From: a virus
Virus record (IMG/VR): IMGVR_UViG_3300001846_000125
Location: 1-25,767 of that record
Direction: 5' to 3' (one strand)
DNA length: 25,767 nucleotides
Below are positions 2-5,807 of this stretch, piece by piece. The notes beneath the pieces are model-generated. The model was not told where the DNA came from. It searched no databases and worked only from the letters and a program-made list of their open reading frames with translations. A program made the position numbers and the translations under genes. Numbering within the stretch: position 1 is the stretch's first letter; every line of letters starts with the position of its first letter.

Positions 2-247
2 GACTCAACAGACCCAAGAAGCGAAGCAGAAATTAACCTACAAAAATGTTTAGACGTTTACGCAGGGAGAATTGGTTCAGATGTTGAAAGCTACTCAATC
101 GCCGGCCGCTCTCTTACAAAGCTCAAGCCCGAAGAGCTTCGCAAAGAAATTAATTACTGGCAGGGCAAGGTCAACCAGGAGCGCAACAAGGCTGCAATCA
201 AAGCCGGCAAAGCGTCTTCATCGACGATAAAGGCTAGATTCCTATGA
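2..247 (+). CDS. DUF6148-like small head protein, 3' part only
   Basis: This is the 3' part of a gene whose start lies before the window; 81 sense codons are visible, ending in TGA. The visible part contains a 'YSIAGRSLTKLKPEELRKEI' segment followed by 'NYWQGKV'. That is the pattern of the small phage proteins (DUF6148, functionally likened to lambda gpW) that sit between the large terminase and portal genes. Its TGA overlaps the portal ATG as ATGA, so the two are probably translationally coupled. A role in head completion or the head-tail joint is inferred from position and resemblance only. The C-terminus is basic and Ser/Ala-rich. Confidence 0.7.
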   Translation, partial: DSTDPRSEAEINLQKCLDVYAGRIGSDVESYSIAGRSLTKLKPEELRKEINYWQGKVNQERNKAAIKAGKASSSTIKARFL

Positions 248-1722
248 AGATCCCGTTTTTTAGCCGCAAAGAGAAGAAGGTGCAGAAGCGTTACTATCAG
301 GGCGCTCAAGTAGGCCGTCTCCTTGGCGGGATGTTTGGTTCTTCTGCGTCAGCAGATTCAACAATTAAGCCATCGCTAGGGAAACTGCGCGATAGAGCAC
401 GAGACTTAGAAAGAAACAATGAATATGTAGCTAGGGCGCTTGATCTAATGGAGATAGGCGTTGTCGGAGACAGAGGTTTTAATCTTCAGGTCAAAGGGGT
501 AAACCTAGACAATAGGCTTGATGTCCCAGCAAACGACTTAATTGAACGTAGATGGAAGCAGTGGGGCAAATACTCGACGACAGACGGATGCATGTCATTT
601 CGTGATCTCTGTGCGATGGCTATACGTGTTCTCAAGCGAGATGGCGAGTTCTTTGCACAGGTAGTTAAGAACTCAGCATATCAGGATGGGTTAGCCATTC
701 ACCCAATAGAAGCTGACCGTGTTGATGTTGATAAAAATGAGCTTATGCCTAGCGGAAGACGTATTCGAATGGGCGTTGAGCTTGATGAGTTCGAGCGTCC
801 AGTCGCTTACTGGGTTCTAAATTATCATCCTGGCGATTATGACTTCATGCAAAACAGGCCAGAGAAGAAGCACACTAGAATTCCTGCCGAAAACATTATC
901 CACGTATTCAAGAAAAAGAGAGCCGGACAGACTAGGGGTGAATCAGCTTTCGCTCCTGCAATCTTTGCTTTGAAGATGCTTGATGGATATAGGGATGCTG
1001 AGATTACAGCAGCTAGGGCAGCGGCCGCTAAGTTTGGTGTTTTGGTGTCTCCGGGAGGAGATGGTATAGCTGATTCTTATGATGGAGATATCCCAGAGCT
1101 AAATTATGAGGCAGGGACGATTCAGTCTTTGCCCCAAGGTTATGACCTGAAGATGATTGACCCAACGCACCCAACAAGTGCGTTCTCTGATTTCAATAAA
1201 GCTGTTTTGCGCGGCATCGCTTCTGGCTTAGGTCTTTCTTATGAGTCACTAAGTAACGATCTTGAGGGCACTTCTTACAGCTCTATCAGGCAGGGAGCTT
1301 TGTTAGAGAGAGATCAATTCAAATCTGACCAACAGTTCCTTATTGACCACTTCGTGGACAAGGTATTTAGAGCTTGGCTAAAGTGGAACATGGACACAAA
1401 TTCATTGGCATTGAACGGGTTTTCTATTGGCCCAGATAAGTACAATAAGTTTGCTGATGCAGCGCAGTGGAGAGGAAGGGGCTTCCAATGGGTAGATCCA
1501 TTGAAGGAAATGAACGCAGCCGTTGTTGGATTACAGAACGGCATACTGTCAATGCAAGATGTAGCTAATCATTATGGTAGAGATGTCGAAGAAACTTTCG
1601 CTCAAATCGAGCGAGATAAAGAAACCGCTACGCAATATAACATCCAAACATCGTTTGAACCGTTTGGCGCTCCGAAAGCTCCAGTTCAGCAAATCAACTT
1701 ATCCGACGAAGAGGAAGGCTGA
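244..1722 (+). CDS. Portal protein, lambda gpB type
   Basis: The 492-residue product matches the lambda-type portal family (Phage_portal_2), whose members are about 500 residues. The N-terminus is basic and carries the family 'R.RARDLERNNEYVARALD' stretch (about residues 50-67), followed by 'VVGDRGFNLQ'. Central parts include 'DGEFF' and 'RIPAENIIHVF', then 'GESAFAPAI' and the 'EGTSYSSIRQG' motif near residue 343. Portals form the dodecameric ring at one capsid vertex, through which DNA is packaged and to which the tail connects. The start overlaps the previous stop (ATGA). The stop overlaps the next start by one base, consistent with one structural transcript. Confidence 0.95.
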   Translation: MKIPFFSRKEKKVQKRYYQGAQVGRLLGGMFGSSASADSTIKPSLGKLRDRARDLERNNEYVARALDLMEIGVVGDRGFNLQVKGVNLDNRLDVPANDLIERRWKQWGKYSTTDGCMSFRDLCAMAIRVLKRDGEFFAQVVKNSAYQDGLAIHPIEADRVDVDKNELMPSGRRIRMGVELDEFERPVAYWVLNYHPGDYDFMQNRPEKKHTRIPAENIIHVFKKKRAGQTRGESAFAPAIFALKMLDGYRDAEITAARAAAAKFGVLVSPGGDGIADSYDGDIPELNYEAGTIQSLPQGYDLKMIDPTHPTSAFSDFNKAVLRGIASGLGLSYESLSNDLEGTSYSSIRQGALLERDQFKSDQQFLIDHFVDKVFRAWLKWNMDTNSLALNGFSIGPDKYNKFADAAQWRGRGFQWVDPLKEMNAAVVGLQNGILSMQDVANHYGRDVEETFAQIERDKETATQYNIQTSFEPFGAPKAPVQQINLSDEEEG

Positions 1723-3932
1723 TGAGTTACAAACCTACCGATGGGATGAAGTCAGAAGCGCAGAAGGGTCTTGACTGGAGAAAGGAGCATGGCAGGGGCG
1801 GAACAGAAGTTGGCATAGCACGTGCTAGGGACATTACTAACGGCAAAAACCTTAGTAATGATACAATCAAGCGCATGTACTCATTCTTCAGCCGTCATGA
1901 AGTTGACAAGAAGGCAGAAGGATTCCGCCCAGGAGAGGATGGTTATCCATCAAACGGGCGAATAGCTTGGGCCTTATGGGGCGGTGATGCAGGATTTAGT
2001 TGGAGTAAAAAGATTATGAACCAGTTAGATGATCGTAGTGTAGAAGAGGAAGGCATCGAAGCTTTAGACTATGAAGCTGAAGCTGAAGTGGATGTTTCTG
2101 AAGTTGCTGAAAGCGTTGATTCTGAAGAAGAAGTTATCGTAGACCTAGATGAAGAGTCTAGGGACGCTTCATTGGTTGATATCGTACATCGAGCAATAGA
2201 AGTCTCCGGTGACGACATCATCAATGAGGAGGAGCGCCGAGTACGCATCGTAATGTCAACAGAGAATCCTGTTGCTCGCGGCTACGGCAAAGAAGTTTTA
2301 GACCACCAGGCTGAGTCCATTGATATGTCATGGATTGCAACTGGTCGAGCGCCGCTGTTGTTAGACCATGATATGGCACAACAGATCGGTGTAATTGAAT
2401 CCGTGGAACTTGATTCAGAGGAGCGCAAGGTCCGCGCTTCAGTTCGCTTTGGTCGAGGCGAACTAGCTGAAGAGATCTTCCAGGATGTGAAGGACGGCAT
2501 TCGGCAGAACATTTCTGTTGGTTATGCAGTAAACAAGATGGAGCGTGAAGGCAAGGACACCTATCGCGTGAAATCCTGGCGTCCTATGGAAGCATCTGTA
2601 GTTTCTATCCCTGCCGACAGTCAATCGCGTGTGGGTCGAAGTGCTGACGCTCCTACTGAACCCGTAATAGAAACTTCTGAAATTAAGGAGACTGTAATGT
2701 CTGAAGAAGTAAATGTAGAGGCAGTAGCGGCTGACGCAGCACGTTCTGCCCAAAAAGAGGCAGCTCAAATCTTTGAGCTAGGCGCTCGCCACGGGATGAC
2801 TGAGAAGGCTGCTGAAGCCGTTCGCTCCGGTCAATCACTGGCTGAGTTCCGTGGTGTTGTGTTGGATTCTATCGGTGACAAGCCACTTGTTACTGAAGAT
2901 ATCGGCATGACTAACAGAGAAGTTAAGCGTTTCAGCTTGACACGTGCTATTCGCGCTTTGGCTAACCCTTCTGACCGCAAGGCTCAAGAAGAAGCGGCAT
3001 TTGAGTTCGAAGCTTCACGTGCCGCCGCTGATGCTTACGGTGTAACTGCACAAGGTATCATGATTCCTGCTGACGTTCTTCGTCAATGGGCTCAACGTGA
3101 CCTGAACACATCAGACGACGATTCACTTGTACCTGAAGACTTCCGCGCTGGCGACTTCATTGATGTCCTTCGCAATCAATCTTCAGTCATGCAAGCTGGT
3201 GCGCGTATGCTGCAAGGTCTGTCTGGAAACGTGGCTATTCCTAAGAAGGCAACTGCTGCCGCTGCGGGATGGATTGCAACAGAAGGCGCTGCCGCTGCTG
3301 AATCTGAAGCTACTTTCTCACAGGTGACAATGACACCTAAGACAGTCGGTGCGTTCACTGAAGTTACTCGACAGATGATGATTCAAGCATCACCAGACAT
3401 CGAGGCGCTTATTCGTGACGACCTAACTCAAGCTATTGCTTTGGCAATCGACTTGGGTGCGTTGCAGGGATCAGGAGCATCTGGTCAGCCAACAGGTATC
3501 AAGAATACTACTGGCATCAACGCTCCAACTAACTTTGCAGCCGCGAACCCAACATTCGCAGAAGTTGTTGCAATGGAAACTGCTGTAGCAGAAGACAACG
3601 CACTTCTTGGCAACTTGGCATACATTCTCCCTGCGAGCATGTACGGCGCGTTAAAGACTACTGAGAAGGCAACTAACACTGCCCAATTCGTAGTTGAGCC
3701 AGGTGGAACGATTAACGGTTACCGTGCAATCGTATCTAACCAAGTAACATCAGGTGATTTGTACTTCGGTAACTTCAATGACCTGTTAGTCGGTATGTAC
3801 GGCGGGCTCGACATTCTTGTCGATCCTTACACTTCATCTGCTTCTGGCACAGTGCGTGTACGCGCTCTACAGTCAGTGGATGTAGCTGTACGCCACGCTG
3901 TATCCTTCGCTGTCAACAATGACGGTGCATAA
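1722..3932 (+). CDS. Fused prohead protease and HK97-fold major capsid protein
   Basis: This 736-residue polyprotein has three parts. Residues 1-100 are a domain recurrent at the N-terminus of prohead proteases, with motifs 'GRGGTEVGIARARD', 'FFSRHEVDKK' and 'GRIAWALWGGDAG'. An acidic linker (about 102-150) follows. Residues about 170-310 are an HK97-family (S78) prohead protease; His216 in 'LLLDHD' and Ser265 in 'NISVGY' are the likely catalytic His and Ser. From about residue 326 the protein is a phage HK97-fold capsid protein with a delta/scaffold-like helical segment and core motifs such as 'GIMIPADVL', 'EVTRQMM' and 'GSGASGQPTGI'. No stop separates the parts. The protease would mature the prohead and free the capsid part. 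An in-frame internal start (separate entry) probably supplies extra capsid subunits. Confidence 0.93.
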   Translation: MSYKPTDGMKSEAQKGLDWRKEHGRGGTEVGIARARDITNGKNLSNDTIKRMYSFFSRHEVDKKAEGFRPGEDGYPSNGRIAWALWGGDAGFSWSKKIMNQLDDRSVEEEGIEALDYEAEAEVDVSEVAESVDSEEEVIVDLDEESRDASLVDIVHRAIEVSGDDIINEEERRVRIVMSTENPVARGYGKEVLDHQAESIDMSWIATGRAPLLLDHDMAQQIGVIESVELDSEERKVRASVRFGRGELAEEIFQDVKDGIRQNISVGYAVNKMEREGKDTYRVKSWRPMEASVVSIPADSQSRVGRSADAPTEPVIETSEIKETVMSEEVNVEAVAADAARSAQKEAAQIFELGARHGMTEKAAEAVRSGQSLAEFRGVVLDSIGDKPLVTEDIGMTNREVKRFSLTRAIRALANPSDRKAQEEAAFEFEASRAAADAYGVTAQGIMIPADVLRQWAQRDLNTSDDDSLVPEDFRAGDFIDVLRNQSSVMQAGARMLQGLSGNVAIPKKATAAAAGWIATEGAAAAESEATFSQVTMTPKTVGAFTEVTRQMMIQASPDIEALIRDDLTQAIALAIDLGALQGSGASGQPTGIKNTTGINAPTNFAAANPTFAEVVAMETAVAEDNALLGNLAYILPASMYGALKTTEKATNTAQFVVEPGGTINGYRAIVSNQVTSGDLYFGNFNDLLVGMYGGLDILVDPYTSSASGTVRVRALQSVDVAVRHAVSFAVNNDGA
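2685..2699 (+). promoter_or_regulatory. Internal ribosome binding site and start for capsid protein
   Basis: AAGGAG at 2685-2690, then six bases, then ATG at 2697, in frame with the surrounding fusion gene. It is a stronger site than the one in front of the fusion start at 1722. Confidence 0.7.
2697..3932 (+). CDS. Predicted free major capsid protein from an internal start
   Basis: Codon 326 of the fusion is ATG (2697-2699) and has AAGGAG at 2685-2690, six bases upstream, a near-ideal ribosome binding site inside coding sequence. Initiation here would give a 411-residue protein beginning MSEEVNVEAV, close to the usual length of an HK97-type major capsid precursor with its N-terminal delta domain. 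The boundary falls after the protease domain, in the flexible acidic linker. Inference: many copies of the capsid protein are made from the internal start and few copies of the fusion from 1722, which would fit capsid stoichiometry. Nested in-frame starts are known in lambda (C and Nu3). No experiment supports it here. Confidence 0.7.
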   Translation: MSEEVNVEAVAADAARSAQKEAAQIFELGARHGMTEKAAEAVRSGQSLAEFRGVVLDSIGDKPLVTEDIGMTNREVKRFSLTRAIRALANPSDRKAQEEAAFEFEASRAAADAYGVTAQGIMIPADVLRQWAQRDLNTSDDDSLVPEDFRAGDFIDVLRNQSSVMQAGARMLQGLSGNVAIPKKATAAAAGWIATEGAAAAESEATFSQVTMTPKTVGAFTEVTRQMMIQASPDIEALIRDDLTQAIALAIDLGALQGSGASGQPTGIKNTTGINAPTNFAAANPTFAEVVAMETAVAEDNALLGNLAYILPASMYGALKTTEKATNTAQFVVEPGGTINGYRAIVSNQVTSGDLYFGNFNDLLVGMYGGLDILVDPYTSSASGTVRVRALQSVDVAVRHAVSFAVNNDGA

Positions 3933-3943
3933 AAACTGAGGAT

Positions 3944-3959
3944 GGGGGCTTCGGCCCCC
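3944..3959 (+). other. UUCG-loop hairpin behind the capsid gene
   Basis: A perfect 6-bp stem GGGGGC / GCCCCC closes a TTCG loop 12 bases after the capsid stop codon. C(UUCG)G loops are exceptionally stable. There is no T run after it, so it is not a standard intrinsic terminator. A role in attenuating transcription or protecting the 3' end of abundant capsid mRNA is inferred. Confidence 0.6.
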
Positions 3960-3977
3960 TGACTCTACGGAGATACT

Positions 3978-4223
3978 ATGAATTACCGTGTTATCAGAGA
4001 TTGCAGAATTGGGGGAGCCCCAGCTAGAGTTGGCGATATTATCGTCTTAGACGATGAAACAGCTAGAGGACTGATGGCGATAGGTCGGGTTGTCCCTGAT
4101 ACTGGAATGCCTAATAACTCGGACAGACAAGTTAAAGAGGTAGAATCCCGTGAAACTGGAAGTAAAACTACTCAAAAAGTCAAACCACGGACAAGCAGGG
4201 GACGTAGTAAGTCTTCAGGATGA
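3978..4223 (+). CDS. Small phage head-region protein, DUF7210-like, copy 1
   Basis: The 81-residue product has GGAGA upstream of its ATG. The N-terminal half has the pattern 'GDIIVLDDETARGLMAIG', typical of small beta-rich phage proteins found between capsid and connector genes (resembling DUF7210). The C-terminal 35 residues are hydrophilic, Lys/Arg/Ser-rich and probably disordered. It occupies the place of lambda FI, so a head-maturation or connector role is possible but unproven. Its 3' end overlaps the next gene by 74 bases in another frame, and the next product has the same core motif, suggesting duplication. Confidence 0.6.
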   Translation: MNYRVIRDCRIGGAPARVGDIIVLDDETARGLMAIGRVVPDTGMPNNSDRQVKEVESRETGSKTTQKVKPRTSRGRSKSSG

Positions 4224-5459: not shown

Positions 5460-5807
5460 ATGAGTCTACTTGATAAGCTAAAGGAAGCTATCGAGTTTGA
5501 CAGCATAGAAGTTGAAGTTCCTGCCTGGGGAGAGACGTTCTTTGTCACTCCCCTTTCAGTGCAGGAGCTTTCTAAGCTGCAAAAGCGATTCCCAGACTTC
5601 CTGATAAATAGTTCAGTGGAAGCCGCTGTTGAACTAATCATGATGAAAGCAATGACTAAGGACGGTGAGAAAGCATTCTCGCTTGAACACAAGCCTTTGC
5701 TACTGCGTCAACGCGCTACGATTATCATGCAATTTTACGGCGTACTTGTTGGGTCTGTTTTACAAGAGGACCCGGAAAAAAACTTAGAAACGACTCGCTC
5801 AGACTGA
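5460..5807 (+). CDS. Tail assembly chaperone, gpG-like (zero-frame product)
   Basis: The 115-residue zero-frame product begins 'MSLLDKLKEAIEFDSIEVEV' and has 'WGETFFVTPLSVQELSKLQK', typical of phage tail assembly chaperones that coat the tape measure protein during tail assembly. The gene lies between tube and tape measure genes. Near its 3' end is a -1 slippery heptamer (separate entry) that lets some ribosomes continue into the T frame. The zero-frame product ends with TGA at 5805, inside the loop of the predicted frameshift-stimulating hairpin. Confidence 0.88.
   Translation: MSLLDKLKEAIEFDSIEVEVPAWGETFFVTPLSVQELSKLQKRFPDFLINSSVEAAVELIMMKAMTKDGEKAFSLEHKPLLLRQRATIIMQFYGVLVGSVLQEDPEKNLETTRSD

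Follow-up and report, generated by a model that had tools for sequence, protein, structure and literature searches.

The window spans 25,767 bases of a virus record that is incomplete and, in IMG/VR, linear. Its plus strand carries, at 1722–3932, an ORF of 736 codons that is open throughout, and the stop codon of the portal gene before it overlaps the start of this ORF as TGATG, as read from the sequence. The features of the region are as follows.

244–1722, plus strand: portal protein gene (phrog_21 match, E 2e-100)
1711–1718, plus strand: SD-like (Shine-Dalgarno-like) GAGGAAGG of the fusion's own start, lying within the portal gene (sequence; RBS model dG +0.04 kcal/mol)
1722–3932, plus strand: full-length fusion of N-domain, S78 protease, linker, delta and HK97-fold capsid (ORF, Pfam, PHROG, AF2)
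1722–2036, plus strand: N-terminal helical domain, residues 1–105, PHROG_2859 (phrog_2859 at 5–101; AF2 helices 7–111 with high pLDDT)
2016–2018, plus strand: another, weaker in-frame ATG, codon 99, where the N-domain ends (ranked second among internal starts, dG +0.94)
2190–2636, plus strand: S78 prohead protease region, residues ~157–305 (PF04586, E 2e-8; PHROG_617 from 157)
2634–2714, plus strand: hypervariable linker, predicted to be disordered, residues 305–331 (pLDDT <50 at 305–331; low identity)
2685–2690, plus strand: internal SD AAGGAG (TAAGGAG at 2684–2690; an SD-like motif is present here in 81/81 close sequences)
2697–2699, plus strand: internal in-frame start ATG, codon 326 (sequence; conservation; best of 39 in-frame internal starts)
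2697–3932, plus strand: putative nested delta-capsid cistron, 411 aa (sequence, conservation, permutation null, RBS model)
2715–3083, plus strand: delta/scaffold-like helical segment, residues 332–454 (AF2 helices; upstream of the mature start of the homologue R4C, 8gta)
3117–3929, plus strand: predicted mature capsid protein, HK97 fold, from about residue 466 (phmmer to 8gta, E 2e-56; R4C chain boundary; Foldseek to 8gta and HK97)

The fusion gene and its internal start

An earlier note, made from the sequence alone, had described this gene as a 736-codon fusion of an HK97-type protease and a major capsid protein. Pfam bears this out, with Peptidase_S78 (PF04586) at residues 209–305 and Phage_capsid (PF05065) at 469–731 of the one ORF; PHROG_617 ('major head protein') spans residues 157–733 (E 2e-152), and Foldseek agrees with an HK97-fold capsid domain in frame with the protease. 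Both domains are thus present as described, and the description needs to be extended by the separate N-domain. An AlphaFold2 model of the fusion, built from a 28-sequence alignment, had a mean pLDDT of 71 and a pTM of 0.43, so its domain arrangement is unreliable; residues 305–331 are disordered in it and the delta helices begin at 332, which places the ATG of codon 326 inside the linker. Among the named phages of the INPHARED set, CRP-811, a Roseobacter phage, was closest (69% identity).

The closest solved structure is that of phage R4C (8gta), whose 268-residue chain corresponds to residues 362–629 of a 629-aa fusion. As 8gta aligns to the window protein from residue 469, the mature protein of the window would start near residue 466, downstream of the helical segment 332–454. 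The 411 residues that follow the internal start would then consist of about 140 of delta and about 270 of shell protein. The length given in the earlier note for a free capsid protein, 411 residues, therefore stands, with the correction that the first ~140 are delta/scaffold-like and would lie outside the mature shell.

The PHROG_2859 N-domain was also seen on non-fusion proteins, for example in Vibrio phage 1.214.O (L103:2983-4962) and PaBG, and some of these are annotated as DNA-binding. Relatives of 850–930 aa (e.g. L006:553-3348) carry a variable central module of ~200 residues with a weak DUF5824 match between the N-domain and the protease; neither the window nor its shortest relatives have this module.

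At the domain boundary AAGGAG (2685–2690) is followed by ACTGTA and then the in-frame ATG, so that the six-base spacing reported earlier is exact. The pattern AAGGAG-N5–8-ATG occurs five times on the two strands of the window against 1.08 expected, and three of the other four sites are starts of listed ORFs (5062, 11453 and, on the minus strand, 22834); the phage thus seems to employ this signal. In a simplified RBS energy model the ATG at 2697 scored −2.4 kcal/mol, the best of 39 in-frame ATG, GTG and TTG codons inside the gene, with the next at +0.9 and the fusion start at +0.04. The GGAG before the second-best start, ATG 2016, is spelled by conserved W-S residues and may be incidental. The RNA around the internal start is unremarkable (80 nt fold, −13.3 kcal/mol, z −0.47).

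A promoter scan of 1500–4200 found no sigma-70-like site on the plus strand and three matches on the minus strand (2.7 expected). A separate capsid transcript is therefore unsupported, there being no plus-strand site between the end of the portal gene and the internal start, and the choice between starts would be translational. Elsewhere in the window, a slippery heptamer, A AAA AAC, lies at 5777–5783 near the end of ORF 5460–5807 (putative tail assembly chaperone) and before the tape measure gene; presumably it serves the usual G/GT −1 frameshift.

Conservation of the linker start

From 229 related viral contigs the best 80 were taken, which with the window gave a close set of 81 sequences. 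In 81/81 of them protease and capsid share one frame and the linker has no stop, and in 81/81 the linker contains an in-frame start preceded by 4 nt or more of SD-like sequence: 80 are ATG and one, in L073, is GTG behind GAGGTGA. Homologous fusions with start-less linkers, which the earlier note had named beforehand as evidence against its reading, are not found among these 81.

The linker itself is the least constrained part of the region. It ranges from 11 to 35 residues in length, and the mean pairwise identity of 22 cluster representatives is 24% in the linker, compared with 56% in the last 80 protease residues and 50% in 80 delta residues. The SD is spelled by different residues, namely KE (AAGGAG), EV (GAGGTN), KVK (AAGGTGA), RGD (AGAGGTGAT) and RS (AGGAGC), and all three codon registers are represented among the positions of its GG (19, 2 and 1 of the 22 clusters of the window's group). 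A nucleotide signal that is kept while the protein drifts is the pattern predicted for a used start site. Since the frame stays open while the linker varies freely, the full fusion and the free capsid protein both appear to be selected. Judged by these comparisons the linker start is not a chance site, and its conservation is the strongest evidence.

Such a site might also be a relic, if protease and capsid genes had recently been fused by loss of a stop codon and the old capsid RBS persisted without function. Some relatives do have separate genes (Dulem virus 34, with two CDS, and, by its feature names, FP_Epona). A relic would decay, however, and the site is kept in groups only 36–44% identical to the window protein while the linker around it has been rewritten; the linker also remains free of frame breaks, and the SD and the start codon already show purifying selection here. 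This explanation is very improbable.

For a wider comparison 375 sequences (the window, L001–L080 and L082–L375) were clustered at 80% identity into 154 clusters and sorted by group: A, the window group; B, relatives in S-CBS cyanophages; C, Jilinvirus-like; D, Cronusvirus; E, Hapunavirus; and F, Phage_capsid_4. The permutation and start-strength tests used the clusters with an S78-end motif and enough capsid left (83 or 84 of 154); even with a widened motif expression the S78-end motif was missing in 96/375 loci. Shuffling synonymous codons gave p ≤0.05 in 5/22 group A clusters and p 0.15 for the window, a weak test, since KE, EE and similar residues are apt to encode an SD. As these shuffles have little power, linker codons were permuted instead, which keeps the composition of the linker. 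The results, in which all P values take clusters as independent although they are related, are given by group.

Group A, 22 clusters: mean best SD match 5.14 nt, permuted 1.10, reached by 0/200 permutations; linker ATG with an SD of at least 4 nt in 21/22; internal start predicted stronger than fusion start in 16/21
Group B: linker ATG with such an SD in 0/13; internal start stronger in 0/10
Group C, 15 clusters: mean 3.13 nt, permuted 1.28, P 0/200; linker ATG with SD in 11/15; internal start stronger in 7/14
Group D, 2 clusters: mean 4.50 nt, permuted 1.61, P 0.045; linker ATG with SD in 2/2; internal start stronger in 1/2
Group E, 2 clusters: mean 5.00 nt, permuted 1.57, P 0.005; linker ATG with SD in 2/2; internal start stronger in 1/1
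Group F (with S78-end motif), 30 clusters: mean 3.53 nt, permuted 1.39, P 0/200; linker ATG with SD in 23/30; internal start stronger in 15/22

Among other in-frame ATGs, 14.5–21% across the groups have an SD of at least 4 nt (20% of the 451 in the same genes of group A, where the 22nd cluster is the GTG case). By the RBS energy model, 45/70 clusters from groups A, C, D, E and F have their best internal start in the linker, against 5.8 expected (nominal P 2e-31).

These results bear on the possibility that the gene encodes a polyprotein only, with all capsid protein released by proteolysis of the 736-aa fusion and AAGGAG-ATG a by-product of an acidic, lysine-rich linker. The tendency of KE and EE to spell an SD, and synonymous shuffles that often equal the natural sequence, as in the window, would fit this, as would the solved R4C chain, which is a fusion trimmed to a 268-aa mature protein. 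Permutation that keeps the composition nevertheless fails to reproduce the signal (0/200 in A, C and F), unrelated residues spell the SD, and a start codon stands at the right spacing throughout, with a swap to GTG once in group A and in 9/78 cyanophage loci. A polyprotein would also supply one protease per capsid subunit, far above what PMC12749128 gives for HK97 (capsid to protease about 415:60) and for D3, in which one Prohead 1 holds about 90 copies of the protease. We consider a polyprotein alone unlikely.

The fusion start used in the strength comparison was approximated as the best start in codons 1–45 of the open frame, and against it the internal start is often predicted to be the stronger. 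This would be expected if only the nested capsid were translated, the upstream part being a separate or weakly used gene and the fusion accidental. An unselected fusion would gather stops and frameshifts, however, and the close set (best 80 of 229 plus the window) has a single frame and no linker stop in 81/81, at linker lengths from 11 to 35; we regard this account as highly improbable. On the present evidence, which is that of sequence comparison, it is very probable that the fusion gene yields the free shell protein too, from the conserved second start.

Exceptions and a second class of fusion

The conservation of AAGGAG-ATG that the earlier note proposed to look for holds in the close relatives and does not extend to the SD of the cyanophage group (0/13 clusters) or of the Foxunavirus-like representatives L089 (FoX3) and L119, in which no SD-like match was found at the linker start. 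The Acinetobacter prophages L378 and L379 have a linker ATG with no 4-nt SD match, and in Shewanella phage 1/44 and Vibrio phage 1.050.O nothing beyond GGGGAC is present at that place. In the cyanophage loci the start position is ATG in 69/78 and GTG in 9/78, with no other valine codon in a search that covered Met and Val only. The bases upstream of it are C/A-rich in L085 and in the cyanophage loci L297–L375. SD-independent starts are common in cyanobacteria, and the cyanophage linker start may either initiate without an SD or have lost its function. The same loci bear on a proposal that the SD-like sequence is a pause site, giving the protease time to fold before capsid synthesis. Slowing of ribosomes has been proposed for SD-like sequences inside genes, but a pause would not need a start codon at fixed spacing, and the cyanophage group retains the start codon though the SD is gone; a role in pausing rather than initiation is extremely improbable.

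The layout of the window recurs in CRP-811, CRP-821, CRP-406, Arya, ep3, RcCronus, R4C, VP882, phiHAP-1, S1 (AGGAG) and PY223, and in Psul1 (AAGGAG), RcBaka (AAGGA), MD8 (AGGAG), and mEp043 and Ayreon (both GAGGA). In l5 of Lactococcus phage c2, AAAGGAG precedes ATG 131 by 11 bases, and the mature start is at codon 206. A scan of viral sequences with R4C as query gave no match. PV211010 (L082:1489-3939) and similar records annotate the fusion start at MRVMM, a position within the portal gene and without an SD; translation more likely begins further on in the frame, at an MSYKPTEGM-like start.

In group F the capsid belongs to another family, PF25209 (related to Mu gpT), and is joined to S78 or ClpP proteases; 9/9 of the members scanned with Pfam had CLP_protease with Phage_capsid_4. 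Of the phages named above, S1, PY223, Psul1, RcBaka, MD8, mEp043 and Ayreon exemplify this second class. The 'tripartite capsid gene' of Gifsy-2 is reportedly a protease-capsid fusion; the window protein has Peptidase_S78 and not CLP_protease by Pfam, and so falls outside this ClpP-capsid class. The ClpP test set comprised 54 clusters without the S78-end motif whose ORF was complete at both termini and had 600 codons or more; clusters that were truncated or fell short of this length were dropped. The best internal start lies 430–500 codons from the C terminus in 23/24 ClpP-like and 25/30 other clusters (1.7 and 2.2 expected), an interval chosen after the data were seen, so that its P values are optimistic. 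The ClpP-like label came from a loose regular expression and undercounts, as L235 and L236 were labelled non-ClpP and have CLP_protease by Pfam.

Two probable head proteins from one gene

We consider it highly likely that one mRNA yields two co-terminal head proteins, a minor fusion and a major delta-capsid, which co-assemble before delta is cleaved. Ribosomes starting at 1722, in the TGATG overlap with the portal gene, would make a minority 736-aa N-domain-protease-delta-capsid protein, and independent initiation at 2697 behind the strong SD would make the majority 411-aa delta-capsid, the equivalent of HK97 gp5. With delta and capsid common to both forms, the long form would co-assemble with the short one and so bring the protease into the prohead, tethered to a minority of the subunits. 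Cleavage by the protease would then follow after delta, near residue 466, and long and short subunits would leave an identical mature shell protein. The site, its conservation, the open frame and the domain layout support this scheme by comparative analysis; from them we infer start use, product ratio, co-assembly and cleavage near 466.

In the λ C/Nu3 and Mu I/Z systems an in-frame internal start in the protease gene gives a second, co-terminal head protein in larger amount. The window resembles these in its conserved in-frame internal start with an SD inside a protease gene (81/81 close sequences; permutation null); the nested co-terminal product would likewise be in excess, and the protease would enter the prohead via the common domain. 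λ C is described as the protease and Nu3 as the scaffold in the accessible literature. Whereas Nu3 is a separate scaffold and the λ capsid gene lies elsewhere, no separate scaffold product is encoded at the window's nested start: the nested frame contains the whole Phage_capsid domain by Pfam, and its product would be scaffold domain and major capsid protein together. With HK97 gp4/gp5 the window shares an S78-type protease, a delta domain at the capsid N terminus and the HK97 fold, and the 411 aa of the nested product are comparable to the 385 aa of HK97 gp5 (3qpr). The protease and capsid genes of HK97 and D3, according to PMC12749128, are separate and adjacent, whereas those of the window form one reading frame.

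R4C has a homologous fusion with an internal GGAGG-ATG at residue 189 of 629 and, unlike the window, has no N-domain of this type; the part of PMC10276861 available gives 415 capsid subunits and does not mention a head protease or protease part. RcBaka is annotated as a 'major capsid and protease fusion protein', Psul1 is also annotated as a fusion, and fusions are described in Paracoccus (PMC6536676, in its accessible part). The c2 l5, Paracoccus and RcBaka genes belong to the same class, and the annotations and accessible passages describe them as fusions only, with no internal start mentioned. No description of an internal start in a protease-capsid fusion was found in the full-text literature, which is weak evidence of absence as subscription papers lie mostly outside its coverage. 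The nested-start principle and protease-capsid fusions are both known; the window differs from λ C/Nu3 in that the nested product would be the shell protein itself.

A further start may precede the protease module, the head of which is marked by an RH[IV] motif. An ATG with an SD of at least 4 nt lies within 12 codons upstream of this motif in 14 of the 16 group A clusters that have it (3.3 expected), and the group mean was reached by 0/300 permutations; eight other query-group clusters have no such motif, and the window, itself without the module, is represented in the count by a longer member of its cluster, L007. Loci with this second SD-ATG are L006, L007, L030–L084 and similar longer marine relatives (e.g. 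L064:1819-4395). In L065:4001-6306 the N-domain is in a different frame from the protease-capsid part, apparently through an indel, and the second internal start is intact; the frame break is possibly an assembly error. If used, the second start would yield a protease-capsid product without the N-domain. It is plausible, though we would stop a little short of calling it probable, that nested starts are general for phage protease-capsid fusions, having been arrived at with two or more unrelated proteases (S78 and ClpP) and two capsid families (PF05065 and PF25209), and that the marine gene is three-tiered, giving full-length, protease-capsid and delta-capsid products in rising abundance, governed solely by how strong each start is.

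Fused protease-capsid genes are common, and annotations give each of them as one 'major capsid protein' gene. With a 1:1 fusion the shell would be overloaded with protease, and a conserved nested start would resolve this problem of stoichiometry: one gene would supply few proteases and many shell subunits, and the route of the protease into the prohead would be explained. Because cleavage would leave an identical mature protein from both forms, ordinary virion proteomics would be blind to the nested product, which may be the reason why the nested start has gone unremarked. Annotations of the capsid precursor should place its start at the linker, on the model of HK97 gp5. This gives a simple, testable rule for many cultured phages, including laboratory phages of E. 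coli and Rhodobacter.
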